Source: Thermoplasmata archaeon
Lineage (GTDB): Archaea > Thermoplasmatota > Thermoplasmata > Thermoplasmatales > Thermoplasmataceae
Direction: 5' to 3'
DNA: 7,507 nucleotides
Assembly (NCBI GenBank): GCA_021806345.1
Contig: JAJZXP010000337.1
Location: forward strand, 1-7,507
Below are positions 3,044 through 7,507 of this stretch, piece by piece. Both the position numbers and the translations under genes were made by a program. Under the pieces are notes generated by a model, which saw only the letters and a list, made by a program, of their open reading frames with translations, was not told where the DNA came from and searched no databases. The first letter of the stretch is position 1; every line of letters starts with the position of its first letter.

Positions 3044-3310
3044 ATGGACAGATTTAGTTTGTATGTAAAAAGCAAGGAGCTGGGTTTAATCCGAAGAAAG
3101 GCAAAGAGGCTGGGTTATTCGGTCTCACGTTTGATGGTTTTTGCAGCTTTGAATTATGAACCTATCAAAACGGTTAAACCAGAGAACGCAAGCAATGAAA
3201 ACGCTTTGAACTTAGAAGAAACGCATAAGAAAAGCGGTCCGGTGGCCGCAACGAAAGCACCGCAGTTTCACGGAAGTGAGAACTTGAATCATGTCAAATC
3301 TAAACATTGA
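3044..3310 (+). CDS. Ribbon-helix-helix (CopG/Arc-like) DNA-binding regulator, 88 aa
   Basis: Residues 1-40 follow the ribbon-helix-helix plan: a short strand with alternating residues (DRFSLYVKS), a basic helix (KELGLIRRKAKRLG), a Gly-Tyr turn, and a second helix (SVSRLMVFAALNY). RHH proteins dimerise through the strand and bind operator DNA with it. Small members such as CopG repress plasmid replication genes. The remaining 48 residues are polar and probably disordered (Asn, Glu, Lys, Ser). The gene is first in the replication operon and starts at the leaderless distance from its TATA box, so autoregulation and copy-number control are likely; this is inference from context. The next gene starts 20 bases before this one stops. 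An upstream start at 2906 is rejected because it would run through the divergent gene and the promoter. Confidence 0.7.
   Translation: MDRFSLYVKSKELGLIRRKAKRLGYSVSRLMVFAALNYEPIKTVKPENASNENALNLEETHKKSGPVAATKAPQFHGSENLNHVKSKH
3272..3279 (+). promoter_or_regulatory. Ribosome binding site for the 47-aa gene
   Basis: GGAAGTGA matches the archaeal anti-16S consensus GGAGGTGA at 7 of 8 bases and ends 11 bases before ATG 3291. It supports translation of the short overlapping gene. Confidence 0.5.
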
Positions 3311-3434
3311 AACGAAAAAAGAGAGGGGTCCCGAGAAGGCCACATGGTTAAGCACCAGGGCACAGAGAATCAAAGAACTTCAAGAACTCTTGGCGGAGCT
3401 ATTCGATGGTAAGAAGGAGGGCCAGAAAAAATGA
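3291..3434 (+). CDS. Small charged helical protein, 47 aa
   Basis: This short gene lies between the regulator and the ATPase. It starts at ATG 3291, overlaps the end of the RHH gene by 20 bases, and ends at TGA 3432-3434, forming an ATGA overlap with the ATPase start at 3431. A near-consensus ribosome site at 3272-3279 supports it. The product is hydrophilic: a polar N-terminus with Lys/Glu, then an amphipathic helix with a Leu pattern (RIKELQELLAELF, residues 26-38) and a basic tail (GKKEGQKK). The helix could mediate pairing or partner binding. No family was recognised. Besides any function of the protein, its translation would couple regulator and ATPase synthesis. Confidence comes from the overlaps and ribosome site, not from homology. 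Confidence 0.6.
   Translation: MSNLNIETKKERGPEKATWLSTRAQRIKELQELLAELFDGKKEGQKK
3416..3421 (+). promoter_or_regulatory. Ribosome binding site for the ATPase gene
   Basis: GGAGGG ends 9 bases before ATG 3431. The site lies inside the last codons of the 47-aa gene and fixes the ATPase start at the ATGA overlap. Confidence 0.65.
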
Positions 3435-5821
3435 AAAAAGAAGAAGGGAAAACCCCACCTGTGCATCAAAATGTCAAAGTGCCTAAAAAAGGTATTGTGT
3501 TTGAAAAAACAACCATTGGAGCTGTATTACATTTAGATGCTGGTGAGAGGAATGTTACTCATGACGAATTGCAGCAGCTTCAGTCCGGCATAATTCCCCC
3601 CGGACTCGATGGAAAAATGACACCGGATGAATTTGAGAAGATCAAGAAATCCGTGAAGAACGAAACAAAAGCCCCCTTTCAAACAAAATCCGGGTCAAAA
3701 GTTTTTCTGGGAAAACAATACCGTCGCGTTAACCCGGCGCTGGACTTTATAGATGATCGTTTAATGATTCTGGTGCCGCTGCCTACGGAGAAGCCTATTT
3801 TTGACAGAAAAGGAGAAATGATCGGAACCCGGACTGATATTGATAATTTTGTAATAACGAGCAACAGAGAAGTGCTTGATTGTATTGCAAGCGAATTTAC
3901 AAAAATGGACTTGATTCCATGGATCCCTGAAAGTGTTGTTGATCAAAGATGGTCCGCTCGTTCATTGGAATCATTCATTCGGGACGGTACGAGCATGGAC
4001 CCCAGCGAGGTGTTCAGAGAAGTTAAAGGAACTTGGGATTATTTCATGGACCTAGGCACGAATCAAGGGGCCGCTGTTGCATGCTCGCTGTATATTTTTC
4101 TGACCTATTGCTATCCTTTGTTCCCATCAGTCCCTTATGTGAGATTCACAGGGTCAAAAGGCGCCGCTAAATCAAAAGCAGGGGCTATTTTCGAACAGAT
4201 CTCGTTCAATTCTCTGAATGCCGTTAATGTGAGTCCGGCGTCCATGTTCCGAACAATCCAGGACACCCGCGGCACCCTGATCATTGACGAAGCGGAAGCA
4301 TATGGCAAAAGGGGGCAGAAGAGCGAATCCCAGGAAGCACTGAATCAAGTGATAAATTCGGGGTGGCAAGCTCAGGGGAAGGTGCCGAGGATTGAGACAC
4401 AAGGCACAAAGAGGGTTCGTGTAAATTACTCTACTTATGGGCCGAAGGTTATCTGTGGAATTAACAGCGTTACTGAAACTCTCAGAGACCGGAGCTACGA
4501 AATTCTGTTAGTTAAAACCTTGGATAGAATAAAATCGGGCCGGACCGTGAGGGAAAATGATCCAAGATGGCAGCGACTTAGAGACATGATCTACGTCTTC
4601 ATCATGAACTATTGGCAAGAAATCAACCAAATAGCGGAAAATGAAGAAATAGAGAACCGGCTCAATCTCATAGGCCGGGAATTTGATAAAGCTAAACCTC
4701 TCCTGGTGCTCGCTGCCTTCTTCACAAAGCATGCCGGCGTGGAAGGAAAATCCTTAATTAATGAAACGTGGGAATTCCTTAGCAATCAACAGGAAAAAGA
4801 AACGGAAGTTCAGCTCGATTCCATCGAATTTTCCATAATCGAAGAATTGGAGTTATTGATCAAGGCTGAACTTCAGAAAGTCCTCGAGTACAAGAAGATG
4901 GAAGATGCGGAACTTGATGAGATACCAGTCCAAATTAAATTGATAGAGCTTACCGAGATGGTTGCGACAGCTGAGGGGATCGATGTAACGAACCCAAGGT
5001 TCAATAAAACGAGATACTCAAAGATACTGAAAGATAAGCTCTTGAAGATGGGCGTTTGTAAAAAAATCCTGAAGGGGCATTCAAATTTTGTGTATTTCAA
5101 AGTTACCAGTAAGGACGTCAAAACCGCTAAAGTGCGCTACCGCATAGATGAAGATGAGAAAGACGATAACCACGATAACCATGGTCACCGTGATAACCTT
5201 GATAACCTTGATAACCAAATCAATTACGATAACCAAATCAATTACGATAACCAAATCAATTACGATAACCAAATCAATTACGATAACCAACACGATAACC
5301 AACAAAAAATTACGGAAAATACAGGGTCTAACAACGATAGGGTTATCGTGGTTACTAAGGTTACCACATGCGAGACGGGAGAAACAACAAAATCACGGGA
5401 AAAATCAGATAAAAACCCCGCAGAAAACGGTACCTTAAAAGAAAAAAATAGTTGTAGTAGCCCTCATGACACGGACAATTCAACGTCTAATGATAACCAC
5501 ACAAAAACCAATATCCACGAGCAAAAAGAAGACGTTAGTCGTAAAATGGAATATGCGGATCAATTTCCGATCACCCATGAAGATGGAGACACGATCTGGG
5601 TTCAACTATCCAATATGGGTTACCTTGTAGATCCGAACTCAGGGATCACAATCGACAGTAAGCACTACAAGATCGGCATCCATGGGATCGGAAAATTGGC
5701 GGATGATAAAAAAACAAAGCTCATCAGTATAATGGATAAGGAACACTTCACACAGCAGAATGATGGGGCATTAGGCGTAAGGTGGTTTTCAAGGCCACTC
5801 AAGAGGGGGGTGAACTCATGA
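3431..5821 (+). CDS. Replication AAA+ ATPase/helicase with winged helix and iteron-encoded linker, 796 aa
   Basis: A P-loop ATPase lies in the middle. Walker A is GSKGAAKS (241-248, K247), with Ala before the Lys, a variant I recall from plasmid and phage primase-helicase ATPases. Walker B is TLIIDEAE (282-289). A sensor-1-like strand follows (VICGIN, N345), then an arginine-finger candidate (LRDRS, 351-355). Residues 1-200 are an uncharacterised N-terminal region. About 500-558 looks like a winged helix (TRYSKILKDKLLKMGV, then SNFVYFKV), probably for DNA binding. Residues 575-625 are an Asp/Asn repeat linker encoded by the iteron-like array; 626-700 are polar and disordered. About 705-796 form a separate C-terminal domain of unknown type. 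The likely role is origin opening or helicase loading for the primase encoded next, whose start overlaps this stop by ATGA. True helicase activity is inferred, and the exact ATPase family is uncertain. Confidence 0.75.
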   Translation: MKKEEGKTPPVHQNVKVPKKGIVFEKTTIGAVLHLDAGERNVTHDELQQLQSGIIPPGLDGKMTPDEFEKIKKSVKNETKAPFQTKSGSKVFLGKQYRRVNPALDFIDDRLMILVPLPTEKPIFDRKGEMIGTRTDIDNFVITSNREVLDCIASEFTKMDLIPWIPESVVDQRWSARSLESFIRDGTSMDPSEVFREVKGTWDYFMDLGTNQGAAVACSLYIFLTYCYPLFPSVPYVRFTGSKGAAKSKAGAIFEQISFNSLNAVNVSPASMFRTIQDTRGTLIIDEAEAYGKRGQKSESQEALNQVINSGWQAQGKVPRIETQGTKRVRVNYSTYGPKVICGINSVTETLRDRSYEILLVKTLDRIKSGRTVRENDPRWQRLRDMIYVFIMNYWQEINQIAENEEIENRLNLIGREFDKAKPLLVLAAFFTKHAGVEGKSLINETWEFLSNQQEKETEVQLDSIEFSIIEELELLIKAELQKVLEYKKMEDAELDEIPVQIKLIELTEMVATAEGIDVTNPRFNKTRYSKILKDKLLKMGVCKKILKGHSNFVYFKVTSKDVKTAKVRYRIDEDEKDDNHDNHGHRDNLDNLDNQINYDNQINYDNQINYDNQINYDNQHDNQQKITENTGSNNDRVIVVTKVTTCETGETTKSREKSDKNPAENGTLKEKNSCSSPHDTDNSTSNDNHTKTNIHEQKEDVSRKMEYADQFPITHEDGDTIWVQLSNMGYLVDPNSGITIDSKHYKIGIHGIGKLADDKKTKLISIMDKEHFTQQNDGALGVRWFSRPLKRGVNS
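5165..5300 (+). repeat. Iteron-like array of GATAACC heptamers inside the ATPase gene
   Basis: Perfect GATAACC copies begin at 5165, 5174, 5192, 5201, 5210, 5228, 5246, 5264, 5282 and 5294; GGTCACC at 5183 is a degenerate copy in register. Spacing is 9 bp for the first six positions, then 18 bp for four steps, then 12. All steps are multiples of three, so the protein frame is kept. Arrays like this commonly bind replication initiators, but they can also arise by slippage in sequence coding for a flexible linker. Confidence 0.85.
5210..5281 (+). repeat. Four perfect tandem copies of an 18-bp unit
   Basis: GATAACCAAATCAATTAC is repeated exactly four times (5210, 5228, 5246, 5264), encoding DNQINY each time. 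There is no mismatch between copies, so the expansion is recent or is kept identical by homogenisation or selection. The unit is the GATAACC core plus an AT-rich spacer. Confidence 0.95.
5341..5365 (-). repeat. Inverted copies of the iteron-like motif
   Basis: GGTTATC (5341-5347), GGTTACT (5350-5356) and GGTTACC (5359-5365) keep the 9-bp step but in reverse orientation. The 14 bases 5341-5354 are the exact reverse complement of TAACCACGATAACC at 5167-5180. The direct and inverted sets are separated by an A-rich stretch (around 5300-5325). A further direct copy, GATAACCAC, lies at 5492-5500. Confidence 0.8.
5805..5813 (+). promoter_or_regulatory. Ribosome binding site for the primase gene
   Basis: GGGGGGTGA ends 4 bases before ATG 5818 and matches the GGTGA part of the archaeal consensus. 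It decides for the start at 5818, which forms an ATGA overlap with the ATPase stop, over the in-frame ATG at 5782 inside the ATPase gene. Confidence 0.65.
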
Positions 5822-6849
5822 ACCCCGTAAGCCCACGTCAGATTAACTGGCTAAGGCAGTTAAGCATTGCGTCCCGGGATGAAATAAAGGTTATGCTGCA
5901 ACCTGCAACCACATGGATTGAACTATTCGATGTGATTCAGCATGTTCCCTCAAAGCCGATCCATTCCAGGACGATTCTAAGAAACGAATTGATCCTTGAG
6001 ATCGATAACGATAACTGGAATGTTGTAAGGGATGGTACCAGAGACATACTCACGTATCTGAAACAATGGGGCGCTAAGGACTCATATTATCTCAGCTATT
6101 CCGGCAATCGCTCCATCCATGTGCATGTTTTCACAGACTGGACCAGTGTGGAAATAGCTGAGGATACAGCAGAGTTGATCAATGGTCATGACGATGTGTT
6201 ATCCAGTATGAAGGCCTATTGGACAAGGCAATTCAATCTTGCAACTGGTGCATCCCTTGATACGCAGCTGACAGGAAGGCATCTTATCAGGATGGAAGGG
6301 GGATTCAATGAGAAATCTCATAAATTCTGCACCATGATTGATGATATTCCTGAGGACAAGCCCCAATATTATGAAATAACCATCCCCGATAGATTGCCCC
6401 CTTCAACCTGGAACCTTTCCAGATTCACCAGTGAGATCAACTCATTCCTTAGGATCCATTATAAGCCCAAGCCGGTTTTTCAATACAATCATGGGAAACC
6501 CTTCAATCCTGAATCTTTAATCGACATTCTCAGACCAGTCTATATCCCGGGGCATCGGCACATGCTGGTATTATGTATTGCCGGATGGTTGAAGCGCCAT
6601 GGTATTGCAGAGGTACAAACCAGAGAGATCATAAGGCAGTTGAATCCCCGTGATCTTACGCCCGCTAAGACCATGGGAACCATAAAAGGTGTGTACAAGG
6701 CATCGGAAACCGACAAGATCCCGGGATTTCATAAACTCATATCGATCATTGATGAACTGGTAATCCAGAATGAAATAAGCCAGTTCACAGCAGATCAGGT
6801 CAAGACATCATTGAAGAATGTATCGAAGCCTAACGGGGTGACGGCATGA
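5818..6849 (+). CDS. Archaeo-eukaryotic primase (AEP) with PriCT-like C-terminal region, 343 aa
   Basis: All three AEP motifs are visible. Motif I is LILEIDNDNW with D63 and D65. Motif II is SGNRSIHVHVF, giving S99-x-H101. Motif III is D148 in LDTQLTGRHLIRMEGG, followed by FNEKSHKF, which parallels the HLIR-x-P-G-S-LHGKTG segment of archaeal PriS. The enzyme would make short primers, and possibly extend DNA, with two metal ions. Residues about 245-305 (RHMLVLCIAGWLKRHGI, then EIIRQLNP) resemble the helical PriCT domain that follows plasmid and phage primases. Residues 1-45 form a small helical N-terminal piece. PriS-like enzymes of cells pair with PriL; no PriL-type gene is present, fitting a self-contained mobile-element primase. 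It is coupled to the ATPase before it and the 62-aa gene after it by ATGA overlaps. Confidence 0.85.
   Translation: MNPVSPRQINWLRQLSIASRDEIKVMLQPATTWIELFDVIQHVPSKPIHSRTILRNELILEIDNDNWNVVRDGTRDILTYLKQWGAKDSYYLSYSGNRSIHVHVFTDWTSVEIAEDTAELINGHDDVLSSMKAYWTRQFNLATGASLDTQLTGRHLIRMEGGFNEKSHKFCTMIDDIPEDKPQYYEITIPDRLPPSTWNLSRFTSEINSFLRIHYKPKPVFQYNHGKPFNPESLIDILRPVYIPGHRHMLVLCIAGWLKRHGIAEVQTREIIRQLNPRDLTPAKTMGTIKGVYKASETDKIPGFHKLISIIDELVIQNEISQFTADQVKTSLKNVSKPNGVTA
6835..6841 (+). promoter_or_regulatory. Ribosome binding site for the 62-aa gene
   Basis: GGGGTGA ends 4 bases before ATG 6846, the same sequence and spacing as at the primase start. It supports translation of the short gene. Confidence 0.6.
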
Positions 6850-7034: not shown

Positions 7035-7321
7035 TAGCACAAACCCACATTGAATCCATCAGCCCCTATGACACTCTAAAAAGGTACAGGGGGGGGAAGG
7101 TAAAGGTTGCCGGTGGGGATCTGATGCCAATGCCGGATATTACAGTCCATTATTTTTCAAAGGACAGCGAGGGGCACGCTAAAATGCCCGGAAGTGAGAG
7201 CATGGAAAAGGGAAAAACAGTAAAGAACACAAGGAGGAGATTGGTAAGCCTTATCCCTCCAGTGATAAGGAGAAGGCTTGATGCACTGAAGAAGAAGGTT
7301 GCGGGGGCGTCAAAAGAATGA
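7031..7321 (+). CDS. Uncharacterised basic protein, 96 aa
   Basis: No family was recognised. The N-terminal half is mixed polar and apolar with Gly and Met-Pro turns (GGDLMPMPDITVHYF, residues 28-42). A charged linker follows, then a basic C-terminal region with two Arg/Lys clusters (NTRRRL and VIRRRLDALKKKV, 66-90) that could form a nucleic-acid-binding helix. There is no signal peptide or membrane segment. The strong ribosome site and ATGA overlaps with both neighbours show it is a real member of the operon. A role with the primase or the Sm-like protein is only suggested by position. Confidence 0.65.
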   Translation: MIAQTHIESISPYDTLKRYRGGKVKVAGGDLMPMPDITVHYFSKDSEGHAKMPGSESMEKGKTVKNTRRRLVSLIPPVIRRRLDALKKKVAGASKE

Positions 7322-7507
7322 TAATGCCGGAAACAAAGAAGAAAGACTGGAAAGACCACGACAGGGATGCCCGTTCCGATGAACCGAGGAACTACAGCAA
7401 TCCCGATCCGTTGAACTGCGGACTGGAAGGAAAGTCGGTGACCGTCACACTGGTGAACGGGAGAATCGAATCCGGGAAGCTCGTAAAAGCGGGTCAGTAT
7501 TTCATTG
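7318..7507 (+). CDS. Sm/LSm-like RNA-binding protein, C-terminus cut by window end
   Basis: This is 63 residues from ATG 7318, running off the right edge. Residues 36-63 match the first Sm motif: L36 and G38 (LEGKSV), alternating apolar residues (VTVTLV), the NG turn (N47-G48), then SGKLVKAGQYFI with G53, L55 and Y61. Sm and LSm proteins form six- or seven-membered rings that bind U-rich or A-rich RNA; archaeal versions are SmAPs, and Hfq is the bacterial relative. The first 35 residues are a charged, probably disordered extension absent from compact SmAPs. The start at 7318 is chosen for the ATGA overlap with the 96-aa gene; ATG 7324 is possible, and the ribosome site (GGGGG, 7303-7307) is weak. 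The second Sm motif lies outside the window, so the call rests on half the domain. Confidence 0.6.
   Translation, partial: MIMPETKKKDWKDHDRDARSDEPRNYSNPDPLNCGLEGKSVTVTLVNGRIESGKLVKAGQYFI

Follow-up and report, generated by a model that had tools for sequence, protein, structure and literature searches.

The DNA stretch analysed here (7,507 nucleotides, referred to as the window) contains at positions 5165-5365 an array of short repeats which, with a probability of about 70%, is the replication origin, or the initiator-loading portion of the origin, of an archaeal mobile element, placed inside the gene of the element's own MCM-like helicase. The best reading is probably that of a P4/PICI-like iteron origin written in coding sequence, which would be bound by the encoded helicase. 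The array lies within the ATPase gene, whose product has a predicted MCM-like fold, and an origin in this gene, the role favoured by a preliminary description of the same DNA, gains support from the layout found in relatives, from which we infer origin function. The features of the window are the following:

3044-3310, plus strand: small RHH-like protein (NikA-like; Pfam NikA-like E=8.4e-5, 23.1 bits, below the cut-off of 27)
3431-5821, plus strand: MCM-like AAA+ ATPase, presumed initiator helicase, 796 aa
4904-5140, plus strand: winged-helix-like region, residues 492-570 (helix/strand order in the AF2 model, block pLDDT 74-90)
5156-5575, plus strand: predicted disordered linker housing the repeats, residues 576-715 (pLDDT <50)
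5165-5300, plus strand: direct iteron block, ten exact GATAACC in 9/18-bp steps, last step 12 bp
5301-5340, no strand: spacer between the blocks, 40 bp, 68% A+T versus 57% for the gene
5341-5365, minus strand: inverted iteron block GGTTATC, GGTTACT, GGTTACC, 9-bp steps
5818-6849, plus strand: putative archaeo-eukaryotic-type primase, 343 aa (very weak profile matches and the motif SGNRSIHVHV)

The repeat array was confirmed to be real. GATAACC occurs 14 times in the window versus 0.88 expected, and 200 shuffles gave 4 at most. The ten copies of the direct block, which the preliminary description had placed in a 9- or 18-bp register, are indeed exact and start at 5165, 5174, 5192, 5201, 5210, 5228, 5246, 5264, 5282 and 5294, but the last step, of 12 bp, falls outside that register; a degenerate site, GGTCACC at 5183, is in register with them. 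The perfect 18-bp tandem units described before were recovered by TRF (4.5 units at 5210-5290). As for the three inverted copies, their positions and 9-bp step hold (5341, 5350 and 5359), but just one is exact, the others carrying 1 and 2 mismatches. The array is wholly contained in the ATPase ORF, about 450-655 bp ahead of the stop codon. In 20,000 synonymous recodings of this segment, GATAACC reached a maximum of 8 copies (mean 2.1), compared to the 10 observed. The 20/25 match of the inverted segment to the direct block was reached by 188 of 20,000 such recodings, and taken alone this segment is only modestly unusual; in the blind lag-9 test described below, the window's own direct-to-inverted match (19/25) exceeded those of all 40 swapped partners (best 18). 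A scan of the window for a second array, based on the best 36-bp stretch for each lag from 6 to 30, with starts at about 5060-5330 left out and a cut of 0.62, gave nothing comparable in this incomplete portion of the element, where only lag 9 at 629 passed the cut (0.64). The inflection of GC skew that the preliminary description had suggested looking for near 5200-5350 is absent: neither GC nor AT skew of the 7.5-kb window turns at the array, and the cumulative GC minimum is found at 2924.

The preliminary assignment of the host gene to the AAA+ ATPases with a winged helix agrees with the predicted MCM/Cch-like fold of its product, for which Cch is the top Foldseek match, and with the winged-helix-like region of the AF2 model, a candidate for the iteron-binding domain. 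The array is encoded just past this region, in the predicted disordered linker. The model, with a mean pLDDT of 64 and a pTM of 0.54, is weak in the ATPase itself (residues ~261-350), and no Pfam match for the ATPase was obtained up to E=0.1, not even to DUF927, the family of the helicases Cch and SaPIbov1 Rep, which makes its likeness to Cch a structural one only. The adjoining gene at 5818-6849 shows very weak matches to PriS (E=0.082) and to a PHROG primase (E=0.026), and its product contains the sequence SGNRSIHVHV, which we take to be a motif of archaeo-eukaryotic-type primases. Among the matches listed, the relatives of this primase amount to 97 proteins, the window's own being one of them, and some are named from Thermoplasmataceae and Micrarchaeaceae MAGs. 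The primase cluster P0028 is spread over 19 contigs, of which the longest has 31,163 bp.

Beside the RHH-like, ATPase and primase-like genes, the window also holds further small genes. A 263-aa ORF (483-1274) lies in DNA of low G+C (~30%), and a 363-aa ORF on the minus strand (1886-2977), whose start is close to the cumulative GC skew minimum, is divergent from the replication genes; both are without a convincing family match. At 7318-7506 a small protein begins that is truncated where the window stops; by eye it resembles ORFs of loci L002, L048, L049, L056 and L073, the copy in L049 showing a sub-threshold Hfq match (E=0.022). This likeness suggests a single family of archaeal mobile elements.

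DNA of relatives was obtained from three contigs and from searches of 3, 389, 400, 117 and 300 genomes (overlapping sets), in which 3, 15, 12, 7 and 16 genomes matched, respectively. DNA of close relatives was found neither in three scans of viral contigs nor in the first genome scan, and the second genome scan gave three loci. A plasmid search returned no match, and the one weak phage match, Phipami28, has no 9-bp array at its gene end (best lag-9 value, 0.50). The resulting set of 41 genes comprises the window and 40 of 47 loci (L001-L047), after dropping L004-L008, which are re-fetches of L001-L003, and L010/L024, which are pieces of one broken gene; L026, with a frame broken by a stop, and L002, whose ATPase is divided among three ORFs, were retained.

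These relatives do not conserve GATAACC itself. Many of them show instead a motif of their own in 9-bp steps, which forms one block and, in reverse complement, a second one at the 3′ end of the same gene. For each gene, the best lag-9 window near the 3′ end was picked blindly, its best 25-bp reverse-complement match was sought up to 500 bp on either side, and the score was compared with those obtained in the region of every other gene. The own match exceeded all 40 swaps in 19 of the 41 family genes and in 1 of 77 control ORFs (Fisher p 9e-10), these controls being ORFs of at least 300 aa from 21 stretches of the same contigs (L001-L003, L048-L065). A match of at least 19/25 was reached by 22/41 genes versus 1/77 controls (Fisher p 1e-11), and by 17 of 1640 swapped pairs. 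The best repeat lag was 9 in 26 genes of the family and 18 in 6 (controls, 9/77 and 5/77). The opposed paired layout is present in about half of the relatives examined. In L011, L017, L023, L027 and L036 the block reverse to the chosen direct window comes first; since block order and polarity are not uniform in distant relatives, neither is claimed for them. At two other loci, L013 and L014, the ATPase ORF has 9/18-bp repeats of the CTACTC/CCTCTAC type at its 5′ end, and near its 3′ end GTAGAGGTAGTAG and GAGTAGAGTTAGTAGAG, which resemble the reverse complement of these repeats; the two blocks may therefore occupy opposite ends of the gene here, beyond the reach of the 500-bp test.

At the protein level, an alignment of the window ATPase with 20 of 27 relatives revealed, by eye, a run with a period of three residues right behind the winged helix in 17 of the 20, with residues that vary by lineage (SNLSN, INSINS, NQTNQT, STSST, PNHP). 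The run is weak in P0009, and past the winged helix of P0004 and P0018 no obvious one was seen by eye, P0018 ending early. The preliminary description had regarded orthologs that keep an Asp/Asn-rich linker and lack GATAACC as a refutation of its origin proposal, and several aligned orthologs do have an Asn-rich linker encoded with a different motif. We think that this expectation was mis-specified, because the inverted block of the relatives matches whatever the direct motif is. Two of the aligned proteins, P0001 and P0002, are 88% identical in the AAA+ core and differ in their linker repeats (NHPIFP-type versus SNFSNSSN), the protein sequences differing in the direct segment and in the presumed inverted one as well; a recent concerted switch of the origin sequence is a possible explanation.

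The constraint on the DNA was measured with 200 protein-preserving recodings per gene, following each gene's own codon usage. The own inverted match was significant (p<=0.05) in 20/41 genes, 11 of them scoring above all 200 recodings, and the lag-9 identity was significant in 18/41. Among the 21 genes that missed p<=0.05, L030 (0.055) and L028 (0.060) did so narrowly, the arrays of L017, L033 and L043 lie partly or wholly outside the ORF, where recoding cannot judge them, and the remaining loci are plain negatives within the 500 bp scored. Some of the 21 loci without significant pairing are distant relatives (E ~1e-10) or are cut by contig ends or by the 1.5-kb flank. The position of the blocks relative to the stop codon also varies. 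Both are within the ORF in the window and in L002, L001, L029, L030, L028, L018, L027, L023, L036, L042, L046 and L037; in L020 and L022 the direct block precedes the stop and the inverted block follows it; the blocks of L033 straddle the stop; and those of L017 are both 3′ of it. In L017, L020 and L033, short ORFs on the same strand (48-59 aa) overlap the arrays past the stop, and these arrays are likely, but not proven, to be non-coding. The pairing with each gene's own motif, its weakening upon recoding and the blocks past or across the stop codon together indicate that the DNA is selected, and not the linker alone. Selection on the DNA motif itself, as first proposed for the window, is thus shown statistically, with relatives that carry other motifs keeping a direct-plus-inverted layout in 9-bp steps near the same place.

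The closest known arrangements are those of bacterial mobile elements. In phage P4, the crr region directly follows the stop codon of alpha, and its annotated iterons stand at +65 and +83 in one orientation, with an 18-bp step, followed by a spacer of 35 bp (71% A+T) and by inverted iterons at +126 and +135 in a 9-bp step; a further inverted iteron is found at +51, an extra TTCACC occurs 7 bp after the first direct iteron, and the whole unit is duplicated. P4 crr and the window share short iterons (8-bp in P4), two opposed blocks and a position near the 3′ end of an initiator helicase gene. The differences are that crr lies outside alpha, is duplicated, and is annotated as needed in cis for replication, apart from the origin annotated at 9086-9809, and that alpha is a primase-helicase of a bacterial host. 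In the annotated P4 ori, type 1 iterons are 10-11 bp apart, so a 9-bp step is not universal. The second P4 origin, oriII, lies inside alpha; it was considered as a parallel and rejected, as the in-gene lag-9 peak lacks type 1 iterons and alpha contains none of the four 8-mers that were sought.

In PMC4234260, alpha is described as binding the P4 origin repeats through its winged-helix domain. According to PMC7581432, SaPI Rep and SCCmec Cch2 use their C-terminal domains to recognise iterons situated just downstream of the genes that encode them, and unwinding by Cch2 requires AAGTG; the three 5-nt iterons of Cch2, within 23 bp, would by our own deduction fit a 9-bp step. PICI origins are presented as an AT-rich region flanked by two iteron sets (PMC6092414, Fig. 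2 legend for the two sets), and both papers (PMC6092414, PMC7581432) treat the arrays located 3′ of rep in PICI/SaPI as origins. In origins of the PICI/SaPI/P4 type, the initiator is a self-loading AAA+ helicase that binds the iterons by its C-terminal domain and drives autonomous replication; for the window ATPase, the MCM/Cch-like fold comes from a model of moderate quality. Like PICI/SaPI and SCCmec Cch/Cch2, the window has a presumed AAA+ initiator helicase adjoining its own iteron array, with two iteron sets (5165-5300 and 5341-5365) in the 3′ part of the initiator gene. It thus resembles the P4/PICI origins, yet it departs from them in position: its array lies within the gene, whereas those papers place the PICI/SaPI origins just 3′ of rep, and in the relative L017 both blocks are likewise past the stop. 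The hosts of PICI/SaPI are bacterial and the element of the window is archaeal. An archaeal element, the orf904 replicon pRN1 of Sulfolobus, combines primase, helicase and winged helix, and its putative origin is close to where the replication gene ends; PMC4234260 depicts this origin, unlike what is seen in the window, as a stem-loop without iterons and outside the gene.

The lambda origin, with which the preliminary description had compared the array, consists of four longer palindromic iterons in one array inside the initiator gene O, whose product is not an ATPase. The comparison stands for repeats located within the coding sequence of an initiator. However, lambda has no opposed blocks in 9-bp steps, and the window has 7-bp sites and an AAA+ protein. 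The better parallels are P4 crr and the origins of PICI/SaPI.

Regarding the mechanism, the C-terminal winged helix of the ATPase would bind the 7-bp sites, as suggested by P4, SaPI and Cch2, with several protomers aligned on successive sites. The two opposed blocks would then seat two helicase rings facing in opposite directions around the spacer, and melting plus priming by the neighbouring primase would lead to bidirectional replication, the origin presumably firing at the array. The coding stretch would tolerate the array because a disordered linker after the winged helix is encoded there. Melting in the spacer is a weak proposal, because only 10/15 spacers are richer in A+T than their own ORF, and an A+T-rich spacer is likewise weak as a general rule. 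Beyond what kinship explains, the similarity of the recognition helices did not follow the iteron class (the observed value was reached in 3385 of 5000 permutations of the labels).

An explanation at the protein level only, in which an Asn-rich low-complexity linker grew by codon-level slippage and the inverted block is a coincidence, would draw on the predicted disorder of the linker, the low-complexity linkers of most aligned relatives, and the tendency of in-frame slippage to favour multiples of 3 bp. It is already contradicted by the data, and seems very improbable: the inverted blocks correspond to the direct motif of their own gene, the pairing exceeds protein-preserving recodings in 20/41 genes, there are blocks past or across stop codons, and lag 9 dominates rather than 6, 12 or 15.

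Two further explanations accept a role for the DNA sites and assign them another function. Some RHH proteins, such as omega, bind short repeats arrayed in both orientations, and the RHH-like protein encoded at 3044-3310 is a candidate rival binder, for which the array would be a ParR/omega-like centromere or operator, serving partition or repression instead of initiation. Another RHH-like gene is present in L048 (NikA-like E=3.1e-4). Nevertheless, we consider this reading unlikely, as phmmer with the window RHH against the neighbours of 11 ATPase loci gave a single candidate at E<0.1 (L048, E=0.029), although a divergent RHH protein may escape such a search, while arrays are present at several other of those loci (L001, L002, L028, L029, L030). 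Moreover, the window count placed no exact GATAACC near the start of the RHH-like gene, and the arrays found, in a survey that covered the surroundings of ATPase genes, are located at the 3′ end of these genes. Alternatively, the array could be a copy-control or incompatibility element, or an integration or packaging site, bound by the ATPase or by other protein without being the start point. The separate annotation of P4 crr, similar in geometry, from the P4 origin fits such a role, as do the integrase-like genes of L001 and L002 (named by eye; no Pfam match). Against it stand the description of the PICI/SaPI arrays as origins and the lack of a second comparable array in the window, where the element is incomplete, and this role appears rather improbable too.

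The two-block layout is also seen with a second AAA+ ATPase. A search with the primase alignment in 117 genomes of one order matched 4, and in the strongest of them, L073, the primase adjoins a 754-aa P-loop protein, an AAA+ ATPase with Pfam P-loop fragments only, below cut-off, in which hhalign detected no homology to the window ATPase (prob 0.3; one sequence versus profile). Starting at 6295, its gene contains GGTAATGTC, GGTAACGTC and GGTAATGTC, and at 6518 there is an inverted match of 21/25. Judging from these sequences, the two-block layout does not seem to be tied to one ATPase family. In L048, a separate Prim-Pol gene (PF09250, E=1.4e-10) and the RHH-like gene are found upstream of the ATPase, whereas L025 and L033 have a fusion of Prim-Pol with the ATPase; the primase partner would thus be swapped while the iteron layout stays.

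It is tentatively conceivable, at less than even odds, that AAA+ initiator helicases of archaeal mobile elements, without detectable homology to one another, share an origin grammar of two opposed blocks of short sites in 9-bp steps, with an echo at P4 crr (9- and 18-bp steps), in which the sequence of the sites may vary freely provided that both blocks vary together. Within this shared grammar, many archaeal elements would write the whole origin into the codons of their initiator's disordered linker, and initiator and origin would therefore travel as one gene. As a speculation, the 9-bp step may be set by the geometry of the ring: 9 bp correspond to about -51 degrees at 10.5 bp/turn, and to -60 degrees, the subunit angle of a hexamer, at 10.8 bp/turn. 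No earlier description of coding-embedded two-block origins in archaeal elements was found in searches of an open-licence library, part of which had other aims.

The array points to a cis-acting element within protein-coding DNA that shapes the linker of the encoded protein. It also offers a rule to recognise candidate origins of archaeal mobile elements from sequence alone, namely lineage-specific repeats in 9-bp steps that are accompanied, at the 3′ end of an AAA+ initiator gene, by a block in reverse complement, and the variety of paired motifs makes the specificity between initiators and iterons testable over many natural pairs.
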